Below are positions 5,642 to 23,635 of a stretch of DNA of 64,000 bases, in pieces (position 1 is the stretch's first letter; every line of letters starts with the position of its first letter). The notes beneath the pieces are model-generated. The model was not told the origin of the DNA. It did no database searches and was given only the letters and a program-made list of their open reading frames with translations. Source of the stretch: Sulfurospirillum barnesii SES-3 (GTDB lineage Bacteria > Campylobacterota > Campylobacteria > Campylobacterales > Sulfurospirillaceae). The DNA is taken from the NCBI RefSeq assembly GCF_000265295.1, contig NC_018002.1, positions 2,294,001 through 2,358,000 on the forward strand, read 5' to 3'. The translations under genes and the position numbers were made by a program.

Positions 5642-6120
5642 GTGATTTGAATATATATGTTGGAACTAAAGAAGAATATACTACTGCATATAAAAACAAT
5701 ATGAAGATAGTATGCGCCTTAAATCGTGCCAGTGGGTTTGTAACACATCAATCAAAAATTGGTTGGAGCGGTAAAGGTTGTGATAAAGGTAACCCATATT
5801 ATCTATATAAAGAAGAAGAGAATGCTATCTATTTGAATATGATAGATGGAGAAGATCCGAAATATGTGAGTGATGAAATGATAAATGCTGCTTTGAGATT
5901 CATAAAATATCATTTAGAAAATAATGAAAAGATTTTTATATATTGTAGTTTGGGTGAATCTCGTAGTCCATCTATCGCTCTTATGTATATGTTAGAAAAT
6001 GAGTTGATAGATACAACCAATACCTTTATAAATTTTACAAATAATTTTTACAATAACTATCAACCCAAAAGAGGCAATTTAGAGTATATTCAAGCAAGAT
6101 GGTTAAAAAGTGAAAAGTAA
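5629..6120 (+). CDS. Dual-specificity/tyrosine phosphatase-like protein in the hsd operon
   Basis: A 163-residue protein with the cysteine phosphatase P-loop CSLGESR (C106-X5-R112) followed by SPS, as in dual-specificity phosphatases. D74 in the MIDGED stretch is placed like the usual general acid. The start ATG lies within the end of hsdS, so the two are translationally coupled. It is not a standard restriction subunit. Extra genes between hsdS and hsdR ('rlo' genes) are known from Campylobacter jejuni type I loci, and this is one such insertion. Its substrate is unknown: it could act on a host or phage phosphoprotein or on RNA ends. Confidence 0.75.
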   Translation: MQQIGDLNIYVGTKEEYTTAYKNNMKIVCALNRASGFVTHQSKIGWSGKGCDKGNPYYLYKEEENAIYLNMIDGEDPKYVSDEMINAALRFIKYHLENNEKIFIYCSLGESRSPSIALMYMLENELIDTTNTFINFTNNFYNNYQPKRGNLEYIQARWLKSEK

Positions 6121-6196
6121 TCATAAACAAATTCAAACTCTTGAGAACTTGAGAGATGTACTCTTTTGCCAAATCTTTTGAGTGATGAAGTAAAAT
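6119..6196 (+). pseudogene. Broken duplicate of the hsdS 3' end
   Basis: This stretch repeats the end of hsdS (5525-5600). Read from 6119 it gives NHKQIQTLENLRDVL, against NQKQIQTLENLRDTL in HsdS. Two extra T bases at about 6173-6176 then shift the frame, where HsdS continues LPKLLSG. It has no start codon and lies between the phosphatase stop and the RloC-like gene. The likely origin is insertion of the phosphatase gene together with an hsdS tail, or exchange of hsdS cassettes that left one tail behind. Confidence 0.8.
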
Positions 6197-6209
6197 AAAG
6201 GATTAATGT

Positions 6210-8318: not shown

Positions 8319-8345
8319 AATGAAAAATTTGATAGGCAACAAAAA

Positions 8346-8492
8346 ATGACTAACGATTTAACAATATCAAATCTTAGCAGACGCCGTGTGCTAAATAAAA
8401 AGAACTACCTAAAAACATTGTATATTACTTCGGATATAAAATACAGTTTCTTATGTGAAGACTTGAGAAGTACTATAAAATATGGAAAGTAA
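8346..8492 (+). CDS. Small 48-residue ORF between rloC and hsdR
   Basis: An uninterrupted frame from ATG 8346 to TAA 8490-8492 encodes 48 residues (MTNDLTISNLSRRR at the start, RSTIKYGK at the end). It lies 27 bases after the RloC-like gene and stops 2 bases before hsdR, which suits translational coupling. It is basic and has no recognised domain. No strong ribosome site precedes it, so it could also be a remnant or chance frame. If real, it might be a small partner of the ATPase or of HsdR, but that is a guess. Confidence 0.35.
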   Translation: MTNDLTISNLSRRRVLNKKNYLKTLYITSDIKYSFLCEDLRSTIKYGK

Positions 8493-8494
8493 TC

Positions 8495-11400
8495 ATGAAT
8501 AAATTTACAGAAGATAAATTAGAGCAAGCATTTATAGAGTTGCTTCATGAGCAAGAAATTATCCATCAAAACGGCAAAGAGCTGATAAGACATGAGAGTG
8601 ATGTACTCCTCAAAGATGATCTCAAAGAGTATTTAGCTGCCAGATATGAATCCCAACATATTACCAAGAGCGAAATCGATCAAATCATTCGCATATTAGA
8701 AAACTATCCTTCGAATGATTTGTACGATACCAATAAAGCTATTATGAAACTAGTATCTGATGGATTTATCTTTAAGCGAGAAGATGCAAACGAAAAAGAT
8801 ATTTTTATAGAACTGATAGACTATGAAAATTTAGACAAAAACACCTTCAAAATTGTCAATCAGCTAGAAATCATTGGCTATGAAAAACGAATCCCTGATG
8901 GTATTCTCTATATTAACGGTTTACCTCTTGTAGTCTTTGAATTTAAAAGTGCCATTCGAGAAGAAGCAACAATTCATGATGCGTATGTGCAGCTTACTAC
9001 ACGATACCGAAGAGATATTCCAGAACTTTTTAAATACAATGTATTTTGTATCATCAGCGATGGAGTGAATAATAAGGTAGGTTCATTTTTCTCACCCTAT
9101 GAGTTTTTTTATGCTTGGAGAAAAATCACAGGTAATGAAGTAGAGGTGGATGGTATTGCTTCTATGCACTCCATGATTAAAGGAGCATTTAATCGTGAAC
9201 GACTCATCGACATTATTCATAATTTTATTTACATGCCCGACAAATCAAAAAAAGAAGAAAAAATAGTTTGTCGATATCCTCAATATTACGCTACTAAAAA
9301 ACTCTATGACAATATAAAACTTCACCAAAAACCACACGGTGACGGTAAAGGTGGTACCTATTTTGGTGCTACAGGATGCGGTAAAAGCTTTACCATGCTT
9401 TATCTCACTCGATTGCTTATGAAAAGTATCCATTTTTCTAGTCCTACGATCATTCTTATCACTGATAGAACAGACCTAGATGTACAGCTTAGTAGTCAAT
9501 TTTCAAATGCTAAAAGTTTTATAGGTGATGATGGTATTGTCAGTGTTGAGAGCCGAGAAGATTTGAGACAAAAATTACGGGGCAGAGAAAGCGGTGGTGT
9601 TTTTTTAACCACCATCCATAAATTCACGGAAGATATTGAGCTACTTAGCAATAGAGAAAATATCATCTGTATATCCGATGAAGCGCATAGAAGCCAAATC
9701 AACCTAGATCAAAAGATTAAAACCACAAAAGATGGTGTTAAAAAGACATTCGGTTTTGCAAAATACCTGCATGATTCATTACCAAATGCAACCTATGTTG
9801 GATTTACAGGAACGCCAATCGATGGAACTTTAGATGTTTTTGGCGATGTCATTGATAGTTATACCATGACTGAATCCGTTCGAGATGAGATTACTGTTAA
9901 GATCGTTTATGAAGGAAGAGCAGCAAAAGTATTGCTGGATAACAGTAAGCTTCATGAGATAGAAGCATATTATGAAGAGTGCGCTAATGTCGGAGCAAAC
10001 GAGCATCAAATTGATGAGAGCAAAAAAGCTATGGCAAATATGGAGAACATTCTTGGTGATCCTAAGAGAATAAAAGCCTTAGCAAAAGATTTTGTAGAAC
10101 ATTATGAAACAAGAGTAAGTGAAGGAGCCACGCTCAAAGGTAAAGCTATATTTGTTTCCAGTAGTAGACCTATAGCCTATGCCCTTTTTAAAGAGATTAT
10201 TGCTTTACGACCACAATGGAATGAAAAGCGTATCTGTGATGAAAATGTAGAGCTTAGCGAGAAAGAGAAAAAGAAGATACTACCTCTTGAAAAACTCAAA
10301 ATGATTATGACTCGAAATAAAGATGACGAAAAAGAGTTATACAATCTTCTAGGAACCAAAGAGTATAGAAAGACACTCGATACGCAATTTAAAAATGAAA
10401 AATCAAACTTTAAAATAGCCATTGTTGTAGATATGTGGCTTACAGGATTTGATGTACCATGTTTAGATACGATCTATATAGACAAACCTATACAGCAACA
10501 CAATCTTATCCAAACAATTTCAAGAGTAAATAGAAAATATGCAGATAAAGATAAAGGGCTTGTTGTAGATTACATTGGTATCAAAACAGCCATGAATAAA
10601 GCTTTAAAGCAATTTTCAAAGGTTGATAGTAAAAACTTTGAAGATATACAAGCCTCTATTGTAGTGGTTAAAGATCATTTAGACTTGCTTTCAAAACTTT
10701 TTCATAAATTTGACAGCCATTTGTACTTTAGCGGAACCACACTAGAACAACTTGAGTGTTTAAACCTTGCAAGTGAATATGTTCAATTGACTAAAGAGCT
10801 TGAAACACGCTTTATCTATCTTGTTAAACGATTAAAATCTGCCTATGATATTTGTTGTGGTAGTGAAGAATTTACGCAACTCGAAAAAGATTTCATTCAT
10901 TTTTATTTAGCTGTTCGCTCAATTGTCGTGAAACTAACTCGTGGCGATGCCCCCGATACTGCACAAATGAATGCAAAAGTTGCAAAAATGATAGAAGAAG
11001 CTCTTAAAAGCGATGGCATTCAAGTGATCTATAAATTAGGCAGTGAAGAAGAATCAAAAATTGATATTTTTGATGAAGATTATATAAACAAAATCAATAA
11101 AATAAAGCTACCTAATACGAAGATTAAGCTATTGCAAAAGCTTTTAGCCAAAGCATTAGAAGAATTTAAAAAAACAAATAAAGTCAAAGCAATTGATTTT
11201 TCAAAAAAATTTACTGCTTTAGTTGCAAAATACAATGAAAGAAAAGAAGAAGATGTACTTGTCAGTGAAGTCCTTGAGGACTTCACTGATGAGATCATTG
11301 ATCTTTATAATGCATTGAAAAAAGAGAAAGAGTCATTTGGTGATTTGGGCATTGATTTTGAGGAAAAAGCTTTTTACGACATATTGAAAATGATCTCTAT

Positions 11401-11638
11401 TAAATATGACTTTTCATATCCTGATGATAAATTAATAGCCCTTGCAAAAGAAGTCAAAATTGTCGTTGATGATAAATCTAAATATACCGATTGGAATATA
11501 CGAGAAGACATCAAAGCTGAACTCAAAGTGGATTTGATTATGTTGCTTGCCAAACACGGCTATCCACCAATTACTAAAGATGAAGTGTTTAAAGAGATAT
11601 TTGAACAAGCTGAGAATTTTAAGAAATTTAGGCAATGA
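8495..11638 (+). CDS. hsdR: Type I restriction endonuclease subunit HsdR
   Basis: A 1047-residue motor and nuclease subunit. The N-terminal nuclease core has PD (134-135) and EFK (149-151), the PD-(D/E)xK pattern. The SF2 translocase follows with Walker A GATGCGKS (291-298), DEAH box (395-398), the TGTPID motif III region (near 435) and ISRVNRKY motif VI (near 680). The C-terminal 350 residues are helical, as in other HsdR proteins that dock on the methylase core. The length is normal and no lesion is seen, so the locus should restrict unmodified DNA. A GGAAAG site precedes the ATG. Confidence 0.96.
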   Translation: MNKFTEDKLEQAFIELLHEQEIIHQNGKELIRHESDVLLKDDLKEYLAARYESQHITKSEIDQIIRILENYPSNDLYDTNKAIMKLVSDGFIFKREDANEKDIFIELIDYENLDKNTFKIVNQLEIIGYEKRIPDGILYINGLPLVVFEFKSAIREEATIHDAYVQLTTRYRRDIPELFKYNVFCIISDGVNNKVGSFFSPYEFFYAWRKITGNEVEVDGIASMHSMIKGAFNRERLIDIIHNFIYMPDKSKKEEKIVCRYPQYYATKKLYDNIKLHQKPHGDGKGGTYFGATGCGKSFTMLYLTRLLMKSIHFSSPTIILITDRTDLDVQLSSQFSNAKSFIGDDGIVSVESREDLRQKLRGRESGGVFLTTIHKFTEDIELLSNRENIICISDEAHRSQINLDQKIKTTKDGVKKTFGFAKYLHDSLPNATYVGFTGTPIDGTLDVFGDVIDSYTMTESVRDEITVKIVYEGRAAKVLLDNSKLHEIEAYYEECANVGANEHQIDESKKAMANMENILGDPKRIKALAKDFVEHYETRVSEGATLKGKAIFVSSSRPIAYALFKEIIALRPQWNEKRICDENVELSEKEKKKILPLEKLKMIMTRNKDDEKELYNLLGTKEYRKTLDTQFKNEKSNFKIAIVVDMWLTGFDVPCLDTIYIDKPIQQHNLIQTISRVNRKYADKDKGLVVDYIGIKTAMNKALKQFSKVDSKNFEDIQASIVVVKDHLDLLSKLFHKFDSHLYFSGTTLEQLECLNLASEYVQLTKELETRFIYLVKRLKSAYDICCGSEEFTQLEKDFIHFYLAVRSIVVKLTRGDAPDTAQMNAKVAKMIEEALKSDGIQVIYKLGSEEESKIDIFDEDYINKINKIKLPNTKIKLLQKLLAKALEEFKKTNKVKAIDFSKKFTALVAKYNERKEEDVLVSEVLEDFTDEIIDLYNALKKEKESFGDLGIDFEEKAFYDILKMISIKYDFSYPDDKLIALAKEVKIVVDDKSKYTDWNIREDIKAELKVDLIMLLAKHGYPPITKDEVFKEIFEQAENFKKFRQ

Positions 11639-11719
11639 ATAGAGAGCTAAAAATAATATTTGAGTCTCAAAAAATCAATTATATAAAATTCACACTATTT
11701 CAGTCATAGGAAATTTAGA

Positions 11720-12868
11720 ATGAATGTTGCATTTTTATTTAATTCAGACCATGAAAAATATCATGGCTTTTATGGCTATCCTATCTTAAAGCTAATATTA
11801 GAAAAAGATATTATTCAGAAAAGCAATAGAAATATGAAAGTCTCAGTAGGTGATATATTAACTTTTTCAACTGCATCACAAAGTAAAGCACCAACATATG
11901 AATATTTTTATGAATTAAATAGGCAGGTATACACTCCTTACAATTTTAATTATTTAATACAACCGAAACTTACAGATTTATCTCAAACGGTAACAATTTA
12001 TTGTTTATTTTTTCAAAACATGAGTGAGAATACGGCTATTTTCTTACATAATTCTCTAAAATTAGATCCTTCATATTTAGGCTCAATGGATATTAATTTG
12101 AAAAACCCTTATCATGTTTATTTTTTTAAAAATTCTCTAATTACTAGCTATAGACTGCATGGAAAAAAATGCTCTTTATTTTTTTCTATGTCAGAAAATG
12201 AAGATCCTGATTTAAGTTCCAAAGAATATTTTGAAACTTATGGTTATGAAGTTATCTTTGAAGACTTGGGGGCAATGCAAACAATTTTTGATGACTATGA
12301 CACTTTAGAACACTATACTAGAGTCCAGGACACAAAAAATATTTTTTTAAATATAAAAACTTTAACCGATGATATTTTAGATGACTTGATCATATCATTG
12401 GAAGAGTTGCATCCTAAACTGTTTAATTCTTTCGCAGCTCTAGCAAGAACATACGAAAGAGTAGAAACGGAAGAAGATATAGCACAATGCGCATTATCTG
12501 GAAGAAGAATATTAGAACAATGTGCAGACTATCTATTTCCAGCTTCAGATCAATTGTATAATGGAAGAAAAGTTGGGCAAACACAATACAAGAATAGATT
12601 ATGGGCATATATTGAAACAGTAGTTAAAGAAAACTCTTTAGATATAGTTTGCATCCAAGAAGTTGGTAGTCAACTTGATAAATTAATTTCATTATTTAAC
12701 GCAGGGCTTCATTCAGAGCTTAACTTAGTAGATCTCAATACCGTACTTGAAAATCTGATTCTATTTATTATTCAATTAGTAAATTTATCTCCTGAAGCTG
12801 CCAGAAAGCCTTATTTAGCTTACGAAAACAATATAGAAAATTTTATGAAAAATATTCAAAAATTATAA
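11720..12868 (+). CDS. Unrecognised 382-residue protein downstream of hsdR
   Basis: A soluble protein with no signal peptide or membrane segment. The N-terminal half (1-190) is rich in aromatic residues and predicted mixed alpha/beta. The C-terminal half (about 200-382) is all helical and includes LSGRRILEQCADYLFPASD and a following YKNRLWAYIE stretch, reminiscent of HEPN-like helical domains of defence proteins, though I cannot confirm a catalytic R-X4-6-H motif. The start follows an AGGAAA site 82 bases after hsdR, so it may be read with the hsd operon. Its place in a defence-rich island suggests, but does not prove, a defence role. Confidence 0.6.
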   Translation: MNVAFLFNSDHEKYHGFYGYPILKLILEKDIIQKSNRNMKVSVGDILTFSTASQSKAPTYEYFYELNRQVYTPYNFNYLIQPKLTDLSQTVTIYCLFFQNMSENTAIFLHNSLKLDPSYLGSMDINLKNPYHVYFFKNSLITSYRLHGKKCSLFFSMSENEDPDLSSKEYFETYGYEVIFEDLGAMQTIFDDYDTLEHYTRVQDTKNIFLNIKTLTDDILDDLIISLEELHPKLFNSFAALARTYERVETEEDIAQCALSGRRILEQCADYLFPASDQLYNGRKVGQTQYKNRLWAYIETVVKENSLDIVCIQEVGSQLDKLISLFNAGLHSELNLVDLNTVLENLILFIIQLVNLSPEAARKPYLAYENNIENFMKNIQKL

Positions 12869-12990
12869 TTTCCCGAAAACTGATCTAAATATTGGAGATG
12901 AATACATACCACTCCCCCCTTAAAATATCGCGTTTTCCCCTCTAATATTTATCTTTTTCAACTTCTTTTATCATGCCTGTAACAATACCA

Positions 12991-13005
12991 TGACACAACC
13001 TGTCA
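12991..13005. promoter_or_regulatory. Candidate operator, copy 1 (TGACA-N5-TGTCA)
   Basis: The inverted repeat TGACACAACCTGTCA lies 51 bases before the first gene of the unknown cassette (13057). Fourteen of its bases recur exactly at 14275-14288, at the same distance before another cassette gene. A repeated dyad at matched distance from two starts suggests a regulator site; the WYL-domain protein encoded at 18680 is the obvious candidate. Confidence 0.5.
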
Positions 13006-13020
13006 CACACTCTGGCTACA

Positions 13021-13045
13021 CTTCTTCCATAATATTTGGAAGAAG
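13021..13045 (+). promoter_or_regulatory. Inverted repeat that could hide a ribosome binding site
   Basis: CTTCTTCC (13021-13028) and GGAAGAAG (13038-13045) form a perfect 8-bp stem with a 9-base loop. The right arm contains the AGAAGG ribosome site of the 63-residue gene at 13057, so folding would block translation. It may instead be a DNA-level operator. Confidence 0.45.
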
Positions 13046-13056
13046 GTTGAGCCTTT

Positions 13057-13248
13057 ATGCTTTCAATTACCGTAGGGATTATTTTTATTCTTACAACATA
13101 TATTTTAAGAAAGTGTATCCGTGATTTATACGTATTTCAATCTGAAATACCCTCTTCTCCCAAATCCAATGAAAACAATGATTCATTTAATTATGAAGCC
13201 ATTCAAAATGCTTTAGAAACAAAACCAAACAAAGATACACAAATCTAA
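13057..13248 (+). CDS. Small single-pass membrane protein
   Basis: A 63-residue protein with one N-terminal membrane helix (residues 1-17, LSITVGIIFILTTYIL), a basic stop-transfer (RKCIRD) and a polar tail rich in Ser, Asn and Lys. An AGAAGG site lies before the ATG, inside a possible hairpin. It is the first gene of the unknown cassette and stops 14 bases before the start of the exported protein. I recognise no family. It could anchor a complex at the inner membrane. Confidence 0.6.
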   Translation: MLSITVGIIFILTTYILRKCIRDLYVFQSEIPSSPKSNENNDSFNYEAIQNALETKPNKDTQI

Positions 13249-13262
13249 TGCAAGGAGCATTT

Positions 13263-14006
13263 ATGTTAATAAAAAAAATTGCGATACTTACTATGGTAGG
13301 GCTGAACTGTTGGGCTGGTATGCCTTGGGAGACAGGCTGGGCAATGGGCGGAACATCAACGCATGCTATTATCGACAAAGACAATAATCAATTACTCATC
13401 GAGTGTAATGATCAAGGAAGTTATTTATATTTACGAAATGAAAAACGAAATGAAATCAAACTTGGGCAAGCTGTTTCTATTGGCGTTAATAACACTAAAA
13501 CGACTGTACCAACGAGTATAGATGCAACCAGTGCTCAAAGCGATAAAACGGCGTGGGGCAATTTTATTTATTCACTTCCAACATCCAAAACCATCACACT
13601 TAACAATAAAAAATTTGAGCCAAACAACTCAGAAAAGCTATCTGATATAGTACAAGCATGTACGGCTTATGATGAAAATACTATCAATAACCAGCAAAAT
13701 AAAAATTTACCCACACAATCAAATCAGGTACCAGTTCAACTAAAAGTACAAAATTTCCCTGCCAATATAAAAACAGGACAGATATATCAATTTGTAAATA
13801 TTGACGTTATCTCAAAAGTCAATAATGTACAAATAAGTAATGTTATTGTTAATCGTGGGAATTGTAAGACTAATGCCTTAAATGCGAAGTTTCCTTTGCG
13901 TTTAAAATTTGGAGAACAATATCAGGGGACCTATCAATCTTGTAATGCAATTGAAGTTGAAGTCATAACAGATCATGGAAATTGGACATTTAGTTTAACC
14001 AATTAA
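13263..14006 (+). CDS. Exported protein of unknown function
   Basis: The start is set at ATG 13263, behind AAGGAG, not at the earlier in-frame ATG 13248. The 247-residue product begins with a signal peptide (MLIKKIAILTMVGLNCWAG), then a Gly/Trp-rich stretch, and is otherwise beta-rich and polar with a Gln/Asn-rich linker near residues 145-160. The C-terminal 90 residues (from about 160) form a separate beta domain with two cysteines (NCKTN and QSCNA) that may pair in the periplasm. No family is recognised. An exported component suggests a function at the cell envelope rather than only in the cytoplasm. Confidence 0.65.
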   Translation: MLIKKIAILTMVGLNCWAGMPWETGWAMGGTSTHAIIDKDNNQLLIECNDQGSYLYLRNEKRNEIKLGQAVSIGVNNTKTTVPTSIDATSAQSDKTAWGNFIYSLPTSKTITLNNKKFEPNNSEKLSDIVQACTAYDENTINNQQNKNLPTQSNQVPVQLKVQNFPANIKTGQIYQFVNIDVISKVNNVQISNVIVNRGNCKTNALNAKFPLRLKFGEQYQGTYQSCNAIEVEVITDHGNWTFSLTN

Positions 14007-14038
14007 TATTACCATCCATTATTTTAAAGGAGCTATCG

Positions 14039-14302
14039 ATGCTATATGTCATCCTTATTTTTTGCATTGCCTTGAGATTTCCTTTATGCTTCACTATCAT
14101 CTTTTCTTTTTTTGGAGCCTATATGGGTTATATTGGAGCTATAGAGTTAGGGATAAGTTCTGAGTTTTTTAAACTTTTTTTAGGACTTCTAGGGTTTCTT
14201 TTGGCTGGCTATATAGCACCTAGCATACAAAAAAAGTATTTAAAGATATCCCGTGAGTATCCCTTTACATTTACGACACAACCTGTCATACCATTTAATT
14301 AA
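14039..14302 (+). CDS. Small multi-pass membrane protein
   Basis: An 87-residue hydrophobic protein with two or three membrane helices (about 2-20, 22-40 and 44-62) and a basic C-terminal tail. The ATG follows AAAGGAG. It is on the same strand as the exported protein 32 bases upstream. The end of the gene contains the second copy of the candidate operator (14275-14288), which suggests that a second transcript starts just after it. No family is recognised. Confidence 0.6.
   Translation: MLYVILIFCIALRFPLCFTIIFSFFGAYMGYIGAIELGISSEFFKLFLGLLGFLLAGYIAPSIQKKYLKISREYPFTFTTQPVIPFN
14275..14288. promoter_or_regulatory. Candidate operator, copy 2
   Basis: GACACAACCTGTCA is identical over 14 bases to 12992-13005. 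It lies inside the 3' end of the small membrane protein gene, 48 bases before the gene at 14337. The codons it uses place it in the C-terminal tail, where constraint on protein sequence should be low. Confidence 0.45.
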
Positions 14303-14336
14303 ACTTTGATTGTTATTTTAAGAATAAGGAGCAAAT

Positions 14337-14999
14337 ATGTTACCACTTATTTTAGGCGGAGTCGCCATTGCAGCCACAGGCTATAAAATCAAACAGTTTC
14401 TTAGCAATGAGGATAATCTTGATAAAATCAATGATACTCTGATGAAAGGAGTTGATTGGCTTGACAGTGTTGATCAAAAAACAGAAAAGTTTTTTGATGG
14501 CTTAATCCAAAAGATTGATGAATCAAAAAATAAAGAAAAACTAGCTTTACTTTTAGACGAACTTGATGATATTAAAAGTACAACAGCAACAATCATCTAT
14601 AACGACATTGATGAGTTACTGTTTGATACTACAAAAAATTCTTGTTCAGAAATCTATAAACCATGTGAAATAGAACTGATAAGAGACCAAAAACAAACAC
14701 CACTACGATATACAGAAGAAAACTATCTCATTATAGAAAAATTCTGCGATATATTAACAACGGCAAATAACTTTCTCTCTCAATACATTGATGAAATTAA
14801 AACATTGCCCACTCAAAATCAATCTTCAGTGCAACCTTATACACTTTCACAAAATCAAATTAAAAAATTATATATAATTCAAACTTTTTTAGAAAATGTT
14901 ATTTGTTGTAAAGTTAGTAGCGATAATGTAACAATTTCAAAGGTTACAATAAGATCTTTTAATAGAATTAAGCATACAATTGAGCTATTTAAGAGTTAA
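14337..14999 (+). CDS. Unrecognised protein with N-terminal hydrophobic segment
   Basis: A 220-residue protein. The first 16 residues (MLPLILGGVAIAATGY) could be a short membrane anchor or glycine-rich insertion helix; the rest is charged and mostly helical, with heptad-like stretches at about 25-85. Two cysteine pairs (near 105-111 and 190-191) have no clear motif. An AAGGAG site precedes the start. It appears to open the second part of the cassette, after the second operator copy. Function unknown. Confidence 0.6.
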   Translation: MLPLILGGVAIAATGYKIKQFLSNEDNLDKINDTLMKGVDWLDSVDQKTEKFFDGLIQKIDESKNKEKLALLLDELDDIKSTTATIIYNDIDELLFDTTKNSCSEIYKPCEIELIRDQKQTPLRYTEENYLIIEKFCDILTTANNFLSQYIDEIKTLPTQNQSSVQPYTLSQNQIKKLYIIQTFLENVICCKVSSDNVTISKVTIRSFNRIKHTIELFKS

Positions 15000-15047
15000 T
15001 GAAATATATTAGTTCTTAATCATTTATATTTTACAAAGGAATTCTCT

Positions 15048-15605
15048 ATGGAAATACTTTTACTATTGTTCTTCGTTGTGTTACTTCAGTTCATTGTTTT
15101 ACTTATAGTTCTAAAAAATGTAAAACATCAACAGAAAGCAACTCAAGAATACATAACAAGCCTTGAACAAAATATTACAAATTTAGTGCAGTCCACTTTT
15201 CATACAATTAGCCAGCAAATCTTAAATTTAAAAATTGATAATTATGTTAATACGGCAAATAAAACCTTAAACTCTAAAGAGCATATATACGAGAATGAAT
15301 TTTTTACTCAAGAGTTTGGACATTGTAAAATTGTTAAAATTATCGATAAAAAAGACAATTCTATTACAAATGTTTATTACAATGAGAATGGGGGAAAATC
15401 TTATACTGAGACATTTAACGAAAATATCTTGACATACTCAGCACATTATCAAGATGATAGATTACATAGAGGCTGTGAGTACGATTCACATGCAAATCTT
15501 CTTTTTGAATATTTTTACAATGAGATTGGTGAGGTCACTAAAAGAATTGAATATTTTTACGCAGAAGATGGGGCATTAGAACAAACACAAGAAACTCATT
15601 ATTAG
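15048..15605 (+). CDS. Membrane-anchored protein with coiled coil and beta repeats
   Basis: A 185-residue protein with an N-terminal membrane helix (about 2-23), a coiled coil (about 25-70), then a beta-rich domain with repeated Y/F-N-E-x-G units (VYYNENGG, FYNEIGE, FYAEDG), similar in style to MORN-like or YwqK-type repeats. The cytoplasmic or periplasmic side is not clear. The TerB-like gene starts 8 bases after its stop, so the two are probably co-translated. No named family is assigned. Confidence 0.6.
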   Translation: MEILLLLFFVVLLQFIVLLIVLKNVKHQQKATQEYITSLEQNITNLVQSTFHTISQQILNLKIDNYVNTANKTLNSKEHIYENEFFTQEFGHCKIVKIIDKKDNSITNVYYNENGGKSYTETFNENILTYSAHYQDDRLHRGCEYDSHANLLFEYFYNEIGEVTKRIEYFYAEDGALEQTQETHY

Positions 15606-15613
15606 GAATGACC

Positions 15614-16030
15614 ATGTATTTACATTTATTAAAAGAAGAAGAGCAAGAAGATTTTTTGGAATTAGCGTATCATCTCATGGGGATAGATGGGATGCATCAA
15701 GATGAGGAAGTTATTGTATTTGAGAGTTATAAACATGAATGTTCTTTAGAAGAGTATATAATTTCAAAACAAAATGATTTAGAAAGTGTTATTGCTAATC
15801 TTAAAAATACTTCTTCTAAAACTAAAAGAATAATTCTCATTGAACTCTTTGAAATTTTATTAACCGATGGTGAAGTACATGAAAATGAAAAAACTTTTAT
15901 CAATCACCTTGCTAGTGAATTTAAAGTTTCAAGTGAAGAGTTAGAAAAGATAAATAAATGGACCTTGGCAATGGATCATATTGTCAAATTAGGATACACG
16001 ATTATCAACAAAGGAAATGATAATGCTTGA
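15614..16030 (+). CDS. TerB-like protein
   Basis: A 138-residue acidic helical protein. The two-half pattern LAYHLMGIDGMHQDEE and LFEILLTDGEVHENEKTFI matches the TerB/DjlA-type fold, in which each half carries an acidic D-G-x-x-x-x-E loop proposed to bind metal. I chose ATG 15614 because AGGA lies a normal distance before it; ATG 15608 is almost on top of that site. TerB domains are found in tellurite/phage resistance (Ter) systems and near membrane and nuclease components. Here the neighbours are a coiled-coil protein (8-base overlap) and a membrane protein with an HNH-like motif. Confidence 0.65.
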   Translation: MYLHLLKEEEQEDFLELAYHLMGIDGMHQDEEVIVFESYKHECSLEEYIISKQNDLESVIANLKNTSSKTKRIILIELFEILLTDGEVHENEKTFINHLASEFKVSSEELEKINKWTLAMDHIVKLGYTIINKGNDNA

Positions 16031-16949
16031 TATTTTTGATAACCCTTTAAAATCTATAAATGATTTTTTTGGAGTTACTGGAGATACTTTAGATTCTACT
16101 CTAAAGGACATTAAAAAACACGGTTCAAAAGTTTTGAGTAGAATTACGGGAGAAGATAAATTCAAGCAAGCTGAAAAATTACGTAAGAAAATTACAAGAA
16201 AATATAATAAAACAGAAACATCCTATGAACAACAATCAAAAATACTCCTAGATTCTTTGGAACAAACAATAACTTCAATAAACAATCATAAACAAGAAAT
16301 TTACAAAAACCACTTTTCTCAATTTACCTTATTAGCAAATCGTCTGCATAATCTTTCCATTCAAGGTGAGAGTTTCATAGAATATTTTGATAGTAGTATT
16401 TATGAAATGAAAAATTTAAATGCCGTGAGATCAAAAAATGACTTATATAGCATTGACTTCAATAATATGAAAGCTCAAGAGATCACTATAGGAATAATTA
16501 CTTTAGGTTGGTCAACACGAAGTAAAGCTGTAGAAACTTTACGAAATGTACAAGCAGAAGAAAAAAGAGTACATGAAGAAATTACAAAGATGAATGCACA
16601 TATTACTCAGTTAGAAACAGCATTATTAGCACTTGAAAATGTTGAAGAATATTTTGCTTCTCTCATACATAATTATGAAAAATTACTGCATCGTTTTAGA
16701 TATGGAATTGCTTCTCAAATGCAAAAAAACATGTTAAATGATATTGCATTAGAAACTGGAAAGTTAGATTTTAAAATGATGCCTATAGTTCATATAGAAG
16801 AATTTCAAGCGCTTTTCAATCTTTCTATCATTTTGAAAACAATGGCTACAATGGGCTATCTTGATGAACAAGGTAATGTCAACGAAGAAGATCAAAAATC
16901 TATTAATAATATCAAGCTTTTAGTCACCCAAGAACTAGCTGTAGCATAA
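16023..16949 (+). CDS. Coiled-coil protein of the cassette
   Basis: A 308-residue, almost wholly helical protein. Long coiled coils occur at about 45-110 and 170-225, separated by a short hydrophobic segment with ITIGIITLGWSTRSKA. Two starts are possible (16017 and 16023); the second has better spacing from AAAGGA. It overlaps the TerB-like gene and ends 6 bases before the next, so the three are one transcription unit. It may be a scaffold linking TerB to the membrane effector. I recognise no named family. Confidence 0.6.
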   Translation: MLDIFDNPLKSINDFFGVTGDTLDSTLKDIKKHGSKVLSRITGEDKFKQAEKLRKKITRKYNKTETSYEQQSKILLDSLEQTITSINNHKQEIYKNHFSQFTLLANRLHNLSIQGESFIEYFDSSIYEMKNLNAVRSKNDLYSIDFNNMKAQEITIGIITLGWSTRSKAVETLRNVQAEEKRVHEEITKMNAHITQLETALLALENVEEYFASLIHNYEKLLHRFRYGIASQMQKNMLNDIALETGKLDFKMMPIVHIEEFQALFNLSIILKTMATMGYLDEQGNVNEEDQKSINNIKLLVTQELAVA

Positions 16950-16955
16950 GGATAA

Positions 16956-18674
16956 ATGATGAGTAACGAAAAATATATAATAAAAGAACTTTCGCTTGAT
17001 GAGATGCTTGATGAGCTCAATGGCACATCTCCGCTCAATATGAGTAAAAAATTAATGGAGTATGAACTCTTCGACCAACAATCGTCTATAGAAATATTGG
17101 AGCAAATTTACAAAGAATTTGAAAGTAAAGAAAAGGTTATTGATAATCTTGTGACACCTATGCTTCTTAATATATTTGATGGGCTTATCAAACATCCAAA
17201 ACTTGAAGGTACCTTCAGAAAAACCAATATTACCCCTAGTAGATTAGTAAATGATGTTAACTCTTTTAGCTATAAAACTTTTAAGCCTAAACAAACGATA
17301 TTTAACCATGACTTCTTCCTGAGACAAGGAGAAAAAGCACATTATAGTCCGTGGACAAGAATGAAGTTTTATGATACTAAACCTCGAAGTACAACAGAAG
17401 AAGAAAAAGGTTTAGTTAGAGATACAACCATTACATACGAAGATAAAAATGGCGAAATAAAAACAATAACTACTACAACTGTCATTGATAATATCACTGG
17501 TGAAACACTTGATTTAACTATAGCTGGTGCTAAGCAAAAAGATATAAAGACGTCACATATGGATCATATTAATCCAATAAGCAAGATACGTGAAGACAAT
17601 AAAAATAATCCTTATCTTTACAGAGATGACCTTGAAAAGTTAGTCGGATTACCAGAAAATGAATCATATATTAACGCATCTCTCAACATATCTAAAAATG
17701 ATATGTCATGGAGTGAATATATTGAAAAAAATCCAAATAAATTAACCCCTGAAGAACAGCAAAAGGCATTAGAATTAGAAAAAAAGGCAAATGAAGCACA
17801 AAAAAATGAAGCTAGAAAGTTAATGGCTAAAAATATTGGGTTAGATGCGTTAGGAGATGTTATTATTTTTATTTTAAAACCTATTTGGTTTGAAATCAAA
17901 GATATGTTTACTCATGGAATTTTAGGAGATTTTGCATCAAAAACTAAGAATAAATTTGAAGCTTTTTTATTAAGAATCAAAAGAGCATATAACTTTATAA
18001 AAGAGAATATACTTCATATGCTAGGCGAAAATTTACAAAAAATTATGGAAAACTTCATTGGGATATTAATAAGTGCTTTAATTCAAGTATGCAAAGGTAT
18101 ATTTCAAAAAATTGTTCAAATTATTTCTGATGGATACTTGGCTTTAAAAGAAGCATTGAAGATTATATTAAAAGACAAAGATGAGAATGGTAATATAATA
18201 TCCCCTGCTCAGAAAGCAGATGCTATAGTTAAAATAGTAGCATCTGCGATAGTTCCAATCTTAATCTTCTCATTTGAACAAACCTTGAGTAAAATACCAA
18301 TTATAGGGGATATAGCTACAATAATTGTATCAGGATTAGCAACAACCTTGGTAGTCTGGGTTCTGGATGAAATTGATCTATTCTCGGTTAAAAGTGAAAA
18401 GCGACTAATGAGAGTAAAAGAAATTTTTGAATTAAGAATTGAAACAATCAAAAAGAATACTGACATATTTGAAAAAGCATCCATTGAAGTGTTAGCAAAA
18501 CAAAAACTTCAATTTAAAAAGATAGCTTCAGATATGCACCATGCTATAGAAAATAATTTGAATGTAAATAATTCAGTCTATCAAATGGCTAATTTTATGC
18601 ATATTGATCTACAAGCTAAATCTACCGACGAATTTTTAGCGCTACTTAGTAGTAAAAAACAATTAGTGATCTAA
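16956..18674 (+). CDS. Large membrane protein with HNH-like nuclease motif (candidate effector)
   Basis: A 572-residue protein. After a helical N-terminal region, residues 200-250 contain SHMDHINPIS, then about 35 residues on NASLNISKND. This order (H-x-D-H-I-x-P, later N and N-x-S-K) is that of HNH endonucleases, here with H201, D203, H204 and N240/N244. The C-terminal half is amphipathic and hydrophobic, with likely membrane helices at about 365-390 and 423-470 (IVASAIVPILIFSF, IVSGLATTLVVWVL). A nuclease-like part joined to a membrane part is unusual and suggests a membrane-associated effector. No CxxC zinc pairs are present. Start at 16956 or 16959. Confidence 0.6.
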   Translation: MMSNEKYIIKELSLDEMLDELNGTSPLNMSKKLMEYELFDQQSSIEILEQIYKEFESKEKVIDNLVTPMLLNIFDGLIKHPKLEGTFRKTNITPSRLVNDVNSFSYKTFKPKQTIFNHDFFLRQGEKAHYSPWTRMKFYDTKPRSTTEEEKGLVRDTTITYEDKNGEIKTITTTTVIDNITGETLDLTIAGAKQKDIKTSHMDHINPISKIREDNKNNPYLYRDDLEKLVGLPENESYINASLNISKNDMSWSEYIEKNPNKLTPEEQQKALELEKKANEAQKNEARKLMAKNIGLDALGDVIIFILKPIWFEIKDMFTHGILGDFASKTKNKFEAFLLRIKRAYNFIKENILHMLGENLQKIMENFIGILISALIQVCKGIFQKIVQIISDGYLALKEALKIILKDKDENGNIISPAQKADAIVKIVASAIVPILIFSFEQTLSKIPIIGDIATIIVSGLATTLVVWVLDEIDLFSVKSEKRLMRVKEIFELRIETIKKNTDIFEKASIEVLAKQKLQFKKIASDMHHAIENNLNVNNSVYQMANFMHIDLQAKSTDEFLALLSSKKQLVI

Positions 18675-18679
18675 AAAAT

Positions 18680-19570
18680 ATGAGTAAACAAATAACTGAA
18701 CACGATAAAATAGCTACGAGATTAGCATTGATTCTGCAAAAACTGGTTGCTAAAGAAAGATTTACAATTGAAGAGCTATGTGAAGAGTTCAATGTCAATA
18801 AGCGAACTATCCAAAGAGATGTCAATGAGCGACTTGCATTTTTACCTATTAAAAAAGAAAATGGGTATTATTTTGCTAAGTCTTTTGCATTTGGAGATCT
18901 AAGCTTTAAAGACATTCAGGCATTTGCTACTCTAAGTGGTATAAAATCACTCTACCCTGCTTTAACCAATGAATTTATTGTGGATCTGCTTAATATCAAA
19001 ACCAATCAAGCATATCTTATTAAATCATTCAACCATGAAAGTATTACAAACCAACAGAAATCTTTTGAAACTATCTCTGCATGGATTCTCAAACATCAAC
19101 AAATCTCATGTACTTATAAAAATAAACAAAGAGTTTTAAACCCTTACAAGCTTGTCAATATCAATGGTATTTGGTATTTGGGTGCAGATGAAGATGGTAC
19201 TTTCAAAACATTTACTTTTTCAAAAATCACCAAATTGAAATTTTTAGATACTAATTTTTCAGAGAATCCTGAGTTTGTAGAACTTCTCAAAAAAAATGAA
19301 GTAACATGGTTTTCTAATAATACTCTTGAGGTGACCTTACAAATCAATTCAAATGTTTCTGAGTATTTTTTTAGAAGAGCACTTCTTCCTAACCAAAAAA
19401 TCATAGAACAAAATGATGATTATCTTATTCTTTCTACAAAAGTATCCTACGAAGATGAACTCTTTAGCATCGTCAAATATTGGTTACCACATATAAAAAT
19501 TCTACAACCAACGGATTTACAAACTAAGTTTGAAAAGATTTTAGAGGAGTATCTCTCGAACAACAATTAA
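18680..19570 (+). CDS. HTH-WYL domain transcriptional regulator
   Basis: A 296-residue regulator. An N-terminal winged helix-turn-helix (about 10-65, FTIEELCEEFNVNKRTIQRDV) is followed by a WYL domain (about 135-215, with LNPYKLVNINGIWYLGA) and a C-terminal WCX-like domain. WYL regulators bind nucleic-acid or nucleotide ligands and often control anti-phage systems (for example BrxR and CapW). It starts 5 bases after the HNH-like gene, so it is the last gene of that operon and may be autoregulated through the repeated operators at 12991 and 14275. Confidence 0.85.
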   Translation: MSKQITEHDKIATRLALILQKLVAKERFTIEELCEEFNVNKRTIQRDVNERLAFLPIKKENGYYFAKSFAFGDLSFKDIQAFATLSGIKSLYPALTNEFIVDLLNIKTNQAYLIKSFNHESITNQQKSFETISAWILKHQQISCTYKNKQRVLNPYKLVNINGIWYLGADEDGTFKTFTFSKITKLKFLDTNFSENPEFVELLKKNEVTWFSNNTLEVTLQINSNVSEYFFRRALLPNQKIIEQNDDYLILSTKVSYEDELFSIVKYWLPHIKILQPTDLQTKFEKILEEYLSNNN

Positions 19571-19752
19571 GATAATATAGCTATTCAATAATTCCATAAC
19601 TTCCATCTGCTCAATGCGCTGAAAGTCACACAACTCTGCAATATCTCTTGATACTGTTTTCAAGTGGCACCTATGGAGACATCATAATCACACCATAAAT
19701 GGTACGATTATTTATATTTAATCGTTTCTAACCCTCTTTTTCTTCACATGAA

Positions 19753-20994
19753 CTAATACAAAAATCCAAAGAGCCATAATGGGATTTTATGTCCAATTCC
19801 TATTTCCAAATCATCACTCACAACATAAGAATCAGGGGTGTCTTTAATTTGACCAAATCCCTTCTTTTTGCCACCCACCTCAAATGTATATTTTTCCTCA
19901 CAATAAAAATCTCCACTCTTACCTGCAAAAATACCATCATCACTAAGGCTTCGTTTGATTTTATAATAATTGTCTAATTGATTTACAAAGAACGTTTCTC
20001 TCAAGTTGCCAATATCAGGCTCTTTTGTGTACATTAAATTTGGATTGGCGAGATAAATCTTCTCTGGCTTATCAATAGACTTCATGGCTAAAGCGTTTCG
20101 CATCAGAAGTTTAATAAGCCCTGCATCATCTAGTTTTGAAAGATACTCTTTTAACGTTCTATCATCTGCTATTTCAGCAGCTTTTTTCATATCACTGATA
20201 TTTGGCTCAAACGGTACACTTTTGATAATAATAGAGAGTAATATTTTGATTTTTTTAATACTAGTACCATTGAGTTTTGGATAGACATAGAGTAGGTCAC
20301 TCTCAATAGAGACATTGATATTCTGTTGAAGGGTTTGCAGGAATAATGTTATATTGGGCATTGATAAATAGTAAGGATAATAACCGTATTTGAGATAATT
20401 TTTAAACAAAGGGATAATCTTATGCTCTTTGATTTCAATCATTTTTTTAATTTCTGTTGCTATATCTACATGGTTTTCTAAAATATTGTGTAAATCATAA
20501 GAACTAAATTCAAACCCATAATGCAATTCTAAAAATTCTCGAAAGCTCATGCCTACCATTGTATAGACGATAGCACGTCTACTGAGATCATGGCTACCTT
20601 GATTGATTTGTAAAGCCGAGCTTCCTGTAGCAATGATTTTAAGTTCACCAAAACGATCATAAATATTTTTAAGCTCTGCTGACCAAGAGTTATATTTGTG
20701 AATCTCATCAAAGCATAGCAGCTTTCCACCATTTAAAACAAACTCTTCTGCAATCTCTGTCATGCTAAATTGGGAGGTGTTCTGGATATCATCAAGATTA
20801 ACATACAAAGCTTCATGCTCTTTATAATGCAAACTCATATATTGTGCGATGGTCGTTGTTTTACCAATACCTCTTGCTCCAACAATAATAGAAAGTCTAT
20901 GTTCTAATGGTTCTGTTATTAAAAAATAACGCTTATATACTTGGTTATTGAGTGCTATAAATTCACGGCTTTTAATAAATAGTTCTTCTAACAT
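19753..20994 (-). CDS. AAA ATPase with DUF4143 domain
   Basis: A 413-residue protein with an N-terminal AAA_14 ATPase (Walker A GARGIGKTT at about 34-42, Walker B LLCFDEIHK near 93-101) and a C-terminal DUF4143 domain containing nuclease-like strand patterns (GDFYCEEKYTFEVGGKKKG). I chose ATG 20994, behind an AGGA site, instead of the upstream in-frame ATG 21021. It is transcribed alone, towards the WYL gene, separated by 182 bases with no visible gene. These ATPases are common, often strain-variable and of uncertain role; they have been suggested to act in mobile elements or in DNA repair. Confidence 0.85.
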   Translation of the reverse strand: MLEELFIKSREFIALNNQVYKRYFLITEPLEHRLSIIVGARGIGKTTTIAQYMSLHYKEHEALYVNLDDIQNTSQFSMTEIAEEFVLNGGKLLCFDEIHKYNSWSAELKNIYDRFGELKIIATGSSALQINQGSHDLSRRAIVYTMVGMSFREFLELHYGFEFSSYDLHNILENHVDIATEIKKMIEIKEHKIIPLFKNYLKYGYYPYYLSMPNITLFLQTLQQNINVSIESDLLYVYPKLNGTSIKKIKILLSIIIKSVPFEPNISDMKKAAEIADDRTLKEYLSKLDDAGLIKLLMRNALAMKSIDKPEKIYLANPNLMYTKEPDIGNLRETFFVNQLDNYYKIKRSLSDDGIFAGKSGDFYCEEKYTFEVGGKKKGFGQIKDTPDSYVVSDDLEIGIGHKIPLWLFGFLY

Positions 20995-21136
20995 AGCTTG
21001 TCCTAATGTTTTATAAAACAATTATACATCAACTTTATATGTAATACAATACATATAAATAAATTTTTTATTCTTCCGAATCACACATTATACTTTTGAT
21101 AAATATTTTTATTATCAAATATTAATAATTCTTCTT

Positions 21137-22315
21137 TTATTTTCTTACTCTACTAAAAAAGTCTTCCAATGACTCTGCTGCTACTTCTTGACGAACTTTA
21201 GAATACCGCTTTGTCACACTAATAGACGTGTGCCCTAAAACAGAAGCCACCTGTTCTAGTGTTCTTCCACTTGATACCAACGTTCCACCAATCAAGTGTC
21301 TTAGATCATGAATTCTAAGATGAACTCCTAATTGTTTTAAGACCTTATCCCAGTGATTACGTACCGTTCCCTTATCCATTTTTCTACTTTTATCGCTGAA
21401 CGCATGGAAAATATAATGATTTCCACTCTGAATTCCTAGAACTTCTAGTGTTCCTATAAGTTCTTTGCTCAATTTATACGTCATCGGCTTTCTGACTTTA
21501 TTGTTCTCGTATTTGATAGTATAAGTGTTGTTTTCAAGGTTAATGTCACTCCATTGAAGGCTTAATGTCTCATTAAGCCTTCTACCATGCGTTAACCAAA
21601 TAAATATACTTTTAAAAGGCTCTAACGGATAGTTATACAAAATATCGTAAAGCTCTTTTGTTTTTTCATCGGATAATTCAACGCTCATCTGATTATCAAA
21701 TTTTGGTATTTGAATTAAGTCTGCTGGATTTGATTTTAATGTCCCATCTAATACATAGCGTTTGAACATAGGTCGAAGAGTTTCTTTTAACGATTTTGCA
21801 GTACGAGGGCTTTTCCCAGAATCTAAAATACCATTAACAATCGATTGTAATTTACGTGTTGTAACTTTATCAATGGGCGCCTTTGCTAAGTCTGGTTGAG
21901 AAAGTATCCATTTGTTAGCAAACGTTTTATACGAAACAAGTGTATTGAGGGAGAGTTGATTCTTCTTCATATCCATAAATTCCTCCCATGCTTGCTGAAG
22001 AGTTGGAATTTTAATCTTCAATTCTTTATGCGAGCCTTCTATTAACTTTGTCAATAGTATTTCTCTTTGAGAAGAAACCTGTCGAAGAGCTTGTAAAAAA
22101 GTGGTCTTTTGAGAAAAATCAAATGTTTTTTTAGTTTGTGTTCGCACGCAGCTTTGATTAACATATGTAATGCGTAGTACAAGCTTATAATCTCGAGGAA
22201 TATAGGTTGGCGCTTTTGTGATTTCCTTACCACTAAAAATTTCATCATTATTAATAAAATACATATTGCGACAATCTACATTTGGAAGATTCACTTTTAC
22301 AAGAATATCAGCCAT
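21137..22315 (-). CDS. Tyrosine recombinase (island integrase)
   Basis: A 392-residue phage-type integrase. The N-terminal part carries a helical SAM-like core-binding domain (about 100-200, LQQAWEEFMDMKKNQLSLNTLVSYKTFANKW). The catalytic residues are all visible in order: R in THGRRLNETLSLQW, H-x-x-R in HDLRHLIGG, H in GHTSIS and the nucleophile Y in TKRYSK. ATG 22315 is preferred, since AAGG lies 8 bases before it; an upstream ATG at 22333 is possible. The gene lies 150 bases from the tRNA-Leu fragment, as expected for the recombinase that inserted the island. It looks intact. Confidence 0.95.
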   Translation of the reverse strand: MADILVKVNLPNVDCRNMYFINNDEIFSGKEITKAPTYIPRDYKLVLRITYVNQSCVRTQTKKTFDFSQKTTFLQALRQVSSQREILLTKLIEGSHKELKIKIPTLQQAWEEFMDMKKNQLSLNTLVSYKTFANKWILSQPDLAKAPIDKVTTRKLQSIVNGILDSGKSPRTAKSLKETLRPMFKRYVLDGTLKSNPADLIQIPKFDNQMSVELSDEKTKELYDILYNYPLEPFKSIFIWLTHGRRLNETLSLQWSDINLENNTYTIKYENNKVRKPMTYKLSKELIGTLEVLGIQSGNHYIFHAFSDKSRKMDKGTVRNHWDKVLKQLGVHLRIHDLRHLIGGTLVSSGRTLEQVASVLGHTSISVTKRYSKVRQEVAAESLEDFFSRVRK

Positions 22316-22481
22316 CTTTATAACCTTGAGCATATTGTGTTAGGGTACACATTAGGGTACACATTTTTATAAACAATTATAGTTACTTGTACCTTACAAG
22401 AAAGTCATTAATGGCTACGGAATCCCATAAATTAGGGATTCCGTAATTACTTGTATTTAGTTGTATTTACTCTACTAATCG

Positions 22482-22536
22482 GACTTAGGATCTGGTGCCG
22501 AGAGGCATGGGAGTTCGAGTCTCTTTATCCGCACCA
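22482..22536 (+). repeat. attachment site: 3' fragment of tRNA-Leu(UAG)
   Basis: These 55 bases are the 3' half of a tRNA-Leu: the anticodon loop CTTAGGA (anticodon UAG), the right arm of the anticodon stem, a long variable arm (TGCC GAGA GGCA), the T arm (GGGAG TTCGAGT CTCTT) and the acceptor strand TATCCGC plus ACCA. No D arm or 5' acceptor strand precedes it, so it is not a working tRNA. The paired bases before 22482 do not match, which places one edge of the identical core near there. It marks the right end of the island. Confidence 0.85.
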
Positions 22537-22551
22537 TCCCTTTTCTAGGGA
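22537..22551 (+). terminator. Terminator of the original tRNA-Leu gene
   Basis: TCCCT-TTTCT-AGGGA followed by CTTTTC directly after the tRNA CCA. It was probably the native terminator of the tRNA gene and belongs to the chromosome. Between here and 22825 I see no gene, only AT-rich sequence that should hold the promoter of the universal stress protein. Confidence 0.55.
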
Positions 22552-22825
22552 CTTTTCAAAAGCTTTTTCTCTCTTTTTAAGAAATCAAATTGAACATCTT
22601 TTAACTACTTTTTTGCTTCAGGCTATCAGTATTTTGAACAATACATTTGAAATGAATGACACACAATGATATTTTCACATTACAGATGAAGTGTCTTGAT
22701 GAGATGGCATAATCATCCCATTTCAAATTTTGTACTTTATCCCCCTTTTATCCTAAATCTATGTTTTTATTGTAAAATTAAAAAAGGCTCTTTTGAGCTT
22801 TGAAAATTGTTTTAAAGGGGAACGT

Positions 22826-23635
22826 ATGAAGCCTACACTTTTAGTTGCGACAGATTTTTCACAAAACAGTACCAGTGTTTTGAAAAAAGCGCTCCATTTA
22901 GCCAACGTTATTAATGCATCATTGCATGTTATCCATGTTGTTGAAACCTCTTTTTTTACACTCAAAAATAAAGAGTACATTAGAGTACAGTGTTTAAACA
23001 AGATTGCTGAGGCAATTCCATCCTTTGTACCAGAGTATTTTCATTGCCTTGAGGGTGAACTCAAAAGTACTATTTCTCATGTTGCTAAAGAAATAAACGC
23101 TACACTCATCGTCATTGAAGACAATCAAAACAAATACATTGCAGAGAAAATTTTTATTGGCTCTGATATGCAAAATATTATTAAAAAAGCAGGTACGCCT
23201 GTGCTTGTTTTTAAAAATACTCTTCCATCAGACTACCAATCCATCCTTCTGCCAACCGATTTATCTGAAGATTCTGCATTCTTTATTCAAGGTATTACAG
23301 AGCTATTTCCAAAAGCGCATCTAAACTTGCTTCATATTTGGAGAGTTCCTGTGGAGTTTCGCCTCAGTCTTTATGGTCTGGATAGAGAAGATATTGCGGA
23401 GTTTAAAAAACGCTGCTTGGCTGATAGTAAAGCTGAATTAGAGGCATTTGTTCAAAGCAATCATCTTCCAAAAGAACGTATCAGTACTTTACTTCGTGAA
23501 GATTTAGATTTTGAAACACTCAAAGAGATTAATCCTGAACTTGTTGCCATGCATACAACAGGGGCGATTAGTCTTTTTGCCTTTAATGTGCTTAAAGAAT
23601 CCACCGCCGATGTTCTTATCTATAAACTTCATTAA
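22826..23635 (+). CDS. Tandem universal stress protein (UspA family)
   Basis: A 269-residue protein of two Usp domains. The first (1-135) begins MKPTLLVATDFSQNS and ends GTPVLVFKN; the second (140-269) begins SILLPTDLSEDS and ends with TADVLIYKL. The first keeps part of the ATP-binding loop (GSDM); the second has no glycine loop and may not bind nucleotide. The start is ATG 22826, with AAAGGGGAA before it. It stands alone right after the island boundary and ends at a shared bidirectional hairpin. Usp proteins act in stress tolerance in the cytoplasm; the trigger here is not known. Confidence 0.88.
   Translation: MKPTLLVATDFSQNSTSVLKKALHLANVINASLHVIHVVETSFFTLKNKEYIRVQCLNKIAEAIPSFVPEYFHCLEGELKSTISHVAKEINATLIVIEDNQNKYIAEKIFIGSDMQNIIKKAGTPVLVFKNTLPSDYQSILLPTDLSEDSAFFIQGITELFPKAHLNLLHIWRVPVEFRLSLYGLDREDIAEFKKRCLADSKAELEAFVQSNHLPKERISTLLREDLDFETLKEINPELVAMHTTGAISLFAFNVLKESTADVLIYKLH

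Follow-up and report, generated by a model that had tools for sequence, protein, structure and literature searches.

We analysed a window of 64,000 nucleotides from Sulfurospirillum barnesii SES-3 (NC_018002.1, positions 2,294,001 to 2,358,000 of the forward strand), in which the 3' half of a tRNA-Leu(UAG) gene stands beside a tyrosine integrase gene. The part of the window right of about position 28100 was covered by the open reading frame list and by tRNA, Rfam, motif and composition scans. The features are listed below; plain numbers are window positions, and L005 8537/8538 corresponds to G000:C1:2288537/2288538 in the genome of this strain (G000).

L005 7179-8333, minus strand: int1, tyrosine integrase of island 1, 384 aa
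L005 8662-8675: TTAGGGTACACATT, putative arm-type site, left-end copy, 70 bp past the CCA of the middle tRNA copy
1..22481, no strand: the part of island 2 in the window; the whole island is G000:C1:2288538-2316481 (about 27.9 kb), with its left end at L005 8537/8538
156..1716, plus strand: Gp157-like, Rad52-like and DUF2958 genes
2983..11638, plus strand: type I restriction-modification genes hsdM, hsdS and hsdR, with DSPc-like and PDC-S06-like genes between hsdS and hsdR
19753..21021, minus strand: AAA_14-type ATPase gene at the right end of island 2; similar DNA in G022, G023, G011, G015 and G016
21137..22333, minus strand: int2, tyrosine integrase of island 2, 398 aa (Pfam PF00589, E 4.5e-20; R, HxxR, H and Y motifs readable in the alignment)
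22340..22353, plus strand: TTAGGGTACACATT, putative arm-type site, right-end copy 1, exact
22352..22365, plus strand: TTAGGGTACACATT, putative arm-type site, right-end copy 2, overlapping copy 1 by 2 bp
22416..22445, no strand: 11-bp perfect inverted repeat between arm sites and core (terminator scan: 1 site found, 0.8 expected from shuffles)
22482..22536, plus strand: 3' 55 bases of tRNA-Leu(UAG) without the 5' half, the displaced half in attR of island 2; anticodon at 22486-22488, CCA at 22534-22536
22484..22490, plus strand: CTTAGGA, anticodon loop, putative 7-bp overlap region at the edge of the block common to three copies
22537..22551, plus strand: hairpin 3' of CCA, TCCCT-TTTCT-AGGGA, weakly terminator-like, related in all three copies
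22552..22700, plus strand: possible scar of an older island's left end, resembling G004 sequence after the intact tRNA
22793..23635, plus strand: chromosomal flank gene, called usp by reading alone, followed by an open reading frame at 23661-24797 on the minus strand

The tRNA fragment runs GACTTAGG...CCGCACCA, beginning two bases 5' of the anticodon loop and ending at CCA, and it lacks the D arm and the 5' acceptor strand. All 55 bases are identical to those of the intact gene, which bears out an earlier note on this DNA that had read the stretch as a tRNA-Leu 3' half, from anticodon loop to CCA, without its 5' half. Neither ARAGORN nor Rfam at the gathering threshold finds a complete tRNA in the window, and a single-strand fold of the fragment picks a different structure. 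The intact reference gene (G000:C1:2271488-2271572), the only intact copy found in the genome, is the last gene of a Pro-His-Arg-Arg-Leu cluster and lies 45 kb left of the fragment in the same orientation, where the earlier note had proposed to look for it. In a genome search with a 99-base query, the other two copies score E = 2.9e-30 each, and the match of the fragment to the tRNA is far above chance.

The hairpin that follows CCA has a folding energy of -6.4 kcal/mol (z -1.55), and 12 of 200 shuffled sequences fold as well. The earlier note had called this hairpin a terminator; the hairpin is present, but because it has no strong T run and was not called by the terminator scan, its function as a terminator is only plausible. 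The scan called the inverted repeat at 22416-22445 instead, and related sequence is partly kept in G022 and G002.

The genome holds three collinear copies of the tRNA-Leu(UAG) 3' half, one intact gene and two fragments. From left to right, the intact tRNA is followed after 17,020 bp by one fragment, which starts at G000:C1:2288537/2288538, and after a further 27,944 bp by the fragment in the window. This extra fragment indicates two tandem islands, and it is this middle fragment that forms the left end of island 2, rather than the intact gene. Island 1 (17.0 kb) and island 2 (27.9 kb) stand head-to-tail behind one intact tRNA gene, and each has its own minus-strand tyrosine integrase left of its fragment, so that in both islands the integrase lies at the end distant from the intact tRNA. 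The int1 gene starts 204 bp ahead of its fragment and int2 148 bp ahead, the latter being the adjoining integrase already reported for the window. The two proteins share 22% identity over 258 aligned positions; int2 was aligned to a XerC-like recombinase and is similar to entries named Integrase, some of which we take to be lambda's. The G+C content is 30-36% in window positions 1-20000 versus 38-44% in the flank at 24001-64000. No relaxase family match was found among the 30 open reading frames from both islands given to Pfam, and island 1 has a coupling-protein-like gene; no capsid, terminase or portal genes were found among the frames scanned, and the Gp157-like protein gave one weak tape-measure match (E 4e-4).

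The three copies agree from GACTTAGG rightwards and diverge leftwards, and copies 1 and 2 agree over 83 bases. Across the genus, we mapped 14 tRNA-Leu(UAG) fragments, those of this genome included and a fifteenth piece, the degenerate remnant at L005 8923-8939, left out. The shared block starts at tRNA base 28-31 in 11 of the 14, from ten genomes, and the other three, starting at base 63 (G016), 66 (G021) and 50 (G017), are other island kinds or eroded copies. Since the block begins at base 28-31, CTTAGGA lies at its edge, and a block edge at the 7-bp overlap region is described as a general rule in the relevant passage of a review (PMC8371274). The edge of identity, together with the allele break in G008 described below, points to a crossover within the anticodon stem-loop, as is typical of anticodon-loop integrases, and sequence comparison puts the strand exchange at the anticodon loop or right beside it. 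The earlier note had placed the crossover near the anticodon stem, and the argument offered for that, that pairing to the upstream bases fails there, is inexact: by direct reading of TCGGA/TCTGG, five anticodon-stem pairs are still possible, two of them G-U. Elsewhere in G014, G012 and G016, there are tRNA matches confined to query bases 80-118.

In an attP of the phage lambda type, the core is flanked on both sides by repeated short arm motifs. The core of island 2 likewise has repeated short motifs on either side, for which an arm function is suggested by the sequence only. The 14-bp TTAGGGTACACATT occurs exactly three times in the 2.51-Mb genome, always at the two ends of island 2, and the right-end pair lies just upstream of int2. 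With tRNA fragments and arm motif at both ends, the fragment is confirmed as the right end of an island. Across 24 genomes of the genus, the motif has 13 exact copies, and 13/13 lie at ends of int2-type islands (reversed control, 0). With at most one mismatch per unit, the doubled motif is present at 5/5 right ends of the 95-98% int2 family, and the motif is present at 6/6 left ends picked by similarity; the three other intact-tRNA flanks scanned (island 1 of G000, G005 and G014) have no TTAGGGTACACATT motif. When one mismatch is allowed, the genome has a fourth copy, at 917555 and thus distant from the island, and one copy turns up in the reversed control as well. A scan of the window with three mismatches shows no excess (7 found versus 6.96 expected), so the case for TTAGGGTACACATT is built on the exact copies and their places. 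Because all 13 exact copies lie at the ends of such islands, TTAGGGTACACATT is probably an arm site of int2.

Two of the 13 copies belong to islands in which int2 is missing (G009) or reduced to a stub (G015); both islands keep a left end with the motif and no tRNA fragment was found for either, indicating that island ends are not always a functional pair. The 14-bp signature can thus locate ends of the family even on islands that have lost the tRNA fragment or the integrase. The decayed island in G015 (L046 434-2624) consists of the left end with the motif, AAA_14-like DNA and only a C-terminal stub of int2.

A second motif, TTTTACTAC-N(1-4)-TTTWACTAC, was found 11 times in the 24 genomes versus 2 times in the control. 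Seven of the 11 lie at tRNA-Leu(UAG) copies, either 62-63 bp past CCA or some 148 bp ahead of the core. In G007 and G012, two copies precede tRNA-Leu(CAA) fragments by about 148 bp, and two more, judging by their coordinates, follow other tRNA-Leu genes at about 63 bp. These G007 and G012 regions also contain int1 relatives of 60-64% identity, yet at 1.5 and 7.9 kb from the tRNA-Leu(CAA) fragment rather than adjoining it. Place and repetition of the motifs underlie both assignments, and the TTTTACTAC-type motif may be the arm site of int1, a weaker case than that for int2.

A search for int2 across the 24 genomes (E <= 1e-20) gave 13 matches, of which 8 lie beside tRNA-Leu(UAG) fragments, 2 beside tRNA-Leu(CAA) fragments (G010 and G006, where an N run splits the fragment) and 3 beside a tRNA-Gln/Met pair. 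Copies of 95-98% identity are present in G023, G002, G022 and G011, so that int2 is up to 98% identical to a copy in another species, and copies of 73-74% identity on one Sulfurimonas and two Sulfurovum MAG contigs have the same motif and the same target. All 8 int2 copies of at least 73% identity (8/8, its own included) have a tRNA-Leu(UAG) 3' half and the doubled motif upstream, with at most one mismatch in one unit; the collection scan was built on six short peptide patterns, and the 8 copies are a lower bound. The relatives of int2 in a phage collection are all distant (588 records, each below 60% identity). The Sulfurimonas genome G041 has one intact gene and two fragments on separate contigs.

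The tRNA-Leu(CAA) 3' fragments (L101 1475-1531, L102 6217-6273, L103 5098-5152 and L104 2365-2687) mark a second island hotspot of the genus. The int2 relatives that adjoin them in G010 and G006 are 38% identical to int2, and the sequences suggest a switch of Leu isoacceptor target between integrase relatives. The relatives beside the tRNA-Gln/Met pair in three genomes (L092, L091 and L093) are distant (27-31% identity, open frames of 294-320 codons), and we guess that they could be a resident Xer-type recombinase.

We compared occupied with empty sites. G019 has an intact tRNA-Leu(UAG), no fragment that we could find and no island, and its close relative G008 has an intact tRNA, a 15.7-kb island with an int2-like integrase (about 35% identity) and a fragment. 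The left flanks of the two are 97% identical over 463 bp and the right flanks 94.3% over 8.9 kb, and in G019 the two G008 flanks join at tRNA base 30. This clean empty/occupied pair concerns a related island, whose integrase is only about 35% identical to int2. G005 provides a near-empty site for the window itself, in which relatives of usp and of the frame at 23661-24797 follow the tRNA at 0.7 and 1.5 kb; no tRNA-Leu(UAG) fragment was found there, and the 20 kb examined contain neither an int1-like nor an int2-like gene. It is not clean: the distance from tRNA to usp is 670 bp versus about 257 bp in the window, about 400 bp extra.

The displaced half in G008 has the sequence of the working half in G019. 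The working and displaced halves of G008 differ at 5 of 55 bases, first at tRNA base 46, which places the exchange within tRNA bases 31-45. The island appears to have altered the sequence of the working tRNA in G008, which makes G008 versus G019 a natural case of an island apparently changing a working tRNA. The halves differ at 2 positions in G013 and at none in G000, G023, G002, G020, G018 and G004, and G011 has two intact tRNA-Leu(UAG) genes with 0 and 4 differences.

Taken together, we are highly confident that the fragment is the chromosome-side attR half of the 27.9-kb int2 island, in tandem with the 17.0-kb island 1, with exchange in the anticodon loop and probable TTAGGGTACACATT arms. 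This reading brings together the observed array, identities, boundaries, motif distribution and the empty/occupied pair of a related island. In the proposed mechanism, the island would have been a circle, and int2 would have recombined the attP of this circle with the only tRNA-Leu(UAG) gene, at its anticodon loop. The attP would have brought its own tRNA 3' half and hairpin, so that integration would have restored a complete tRNA on the left and shifted the old half to the right. Island 1, with a different integrase, would have been inserted at the same loop, and the result would be the array tRNA - island 1 - half - island 2 - half. Besides the core, int2 would bind the putative TTAGGGTACACATT arm sites, of which the right end has two and the left end one and a half. 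We infer the arm function, the present activity and the order of insertion, as well as an excision of island 2 through the window fragment and L005 8537.

Could the array instead be one composite island of 45 kb, with the outer copies as its only working ends and the middle fragment a passive relic? All three cores are identical, and recombination of the outer pair is possible in principle. Each segment, however, has its own integrase; the int2 motif is found only to the right of the middle copy and to the left of the rightmost one, an ACTAC-type pair flanks the intact copy on its right and the middle copy on its left, and in G023 and G002 a lone int2-type island reaches from the intact tRNA to one fragment. 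We consider a composite island improbable. Pseudogenes of tRNAs exist in general, and the fragment might be one that arose by duplication or decay, unrelated to the integrase; the identity of 55/55 bases, the adjoining integrase, the empty/occupied pair and the common 5' edge at base 28-31 in 11 fragments from 10 genomes argue so strongly against it that its chance is negligible.

Whether the islands still move is a separate matter. They may be immobile now and the halves fossils, as the decayed relatives in G015 (C-terminal int2 stub) and G009 (left end only), the possible scar and the degenerate 3' end at L005 8923-8939 would suggest. Against this, int2 has its full length, its catalytic motifs can be read and a copy in another species matches it at 98% identity; the two cores are intact, as are the two sets of arm motifs. 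We regard immobility as unlikely, though with an appreciable chance of being right.

Beyond the attR reading preferred for this locus, the tRNA-Leu(UAG) of Sulfurospirillum and related genera might be a chimera, rebuilt repeatedly by islands with distantly related integrases that use the same loop, each supplying a fresh 3' half and hairpin and leaving the old half at the far end; we see the chances for and against this as even. On this view, and given the differing halves of G008 and the match of its displaced half to G019, tRNA halves would travel between species on islands, and the displaced old halves would be a record of earlier insertions. For tRNA-Leu(UAG), 22/23 loci share a single form of the 5' half, and the 3' half occurs in six forms; the 23 loci come from 22 of the 24 genus genomes and one of a neighbouring genus, leaving out G017 and G022, in whose loci no whole gene was found, and the second G011 copy. 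In tRNA-Arg(UCG) of the same cluster, the 5' half has one form in 23/23 loci and the 3' half four forms. We rejected the genus-wide signal of half-exchange, because tRNA-Arg(UCG) is skewed in the same way and the skew alone proves nothing. In the open-access literature, we found no work on tRNA allele replacement.

Ccr recombinases are serine recombinases, and int1 and int2 are tyrosine integrases. In the sections of the Islander report considered here (PMC4383910), an anticodon-centred site is given for 2083/3919 islands (Table 1), along with 125 tandems of 2 or more. As in Islander tRNA islands, an intact tRNA and a displaced 3' fragment downstream in the same orientation mark the ends, and a tyrosine integrase lies between them, with lengths within 2-200 kb; as in Islander tandems, each member has its own integrase and its own fragment (PMC4383910). 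The present islands are the same in kind, and here probable arm sites also tie each end to its integrase. Exchange in the loop by an element that rebuilds its target resembles the anticodon-loop sublocation integrases of Williams 2002, as far as these are relayed in PMC4383910, PMC8371274 and PMC2647930. The Dehalococcoides ssrA islands are also a tandem at a single-copy RNA gene, each marked by a 3'-end copy; they differ in that their site is in the T loop of tmRNA and their integrase is related to Ccr recombinases, according to the portions of PMC3146451 consulted. The combination of Sulfurospirillum, integrase and tRNA-Leu yields only one paper, on Dehalococcoides by its title and abstract, in the open-access literature searched. 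Judged by these excerpts, the island end and the tandem array are of an ordinary, already catalogued kind (PMC4383910, PMC3146451). The present analysis contributes the tandem structure and the ends, together with probable arm sites and, in G008, an apparent exchange of tRNA halves; the probable integrase docking sites and displaced tRNA halves are unusually clear to read at this locus.

The right flank of the fragment suggests an older history. Up to position 22698, it is 90% identical over 139 bp to the sequence of G004 around and after its tRNA, 55 of these bases being the tRNA half; beyond the half, identity is 84.5% over 84 bp. G004 carries the second arm motif, a similar stretch is found in a Sulfurimonas contig, and a degenerate ACTAC arm-like pair lies at 22599-22619 in the window. 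Judging from this resemblance, 22552-22700 may be a scar left by an older island and not plain chromosome; alternatively, the similarity to G004 is that of a shared ancestral flank. Inside the left end of island 2, L005 8714-8939 is 76% similar to the right end of another island kind (G016), and its last 17 bases (8923-8939) match the tRNA-Leu 3' end exactly. On account of the scar-like stretch and this remnant, the array, which records at least two insertions, probably records three or four.

Both ends of the island are fixed within a few bases, and the restriction-modification genes and candidate defence cargo can therefore be assigned to an element. The PDC-S06-like candidate defence gene lies at 6210-8318 (E 3.1e-255). 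Upstream of the Gp157-like, Rad52-like and DUF2958 genes, a DUF932-like gene (L005 13330-14148) matches plasmid proteins annotated DUF932 or DUF945; a PDB search with its product gave weak syntaxin matches alone, which we took as chance. The cargo of island 1 comprises the coupling-protein-like gene, a Toprim gene and a StbB-like protein below the curated cut-off. A run of seven open reading frames at 13248-18674 in island 2 has a Pfam match over the cut-off in one frame only (TerB-like) and is followed by a WYL-domain regulator at 18680-19570; the run and the regulator are possibly an unknown defence operon.
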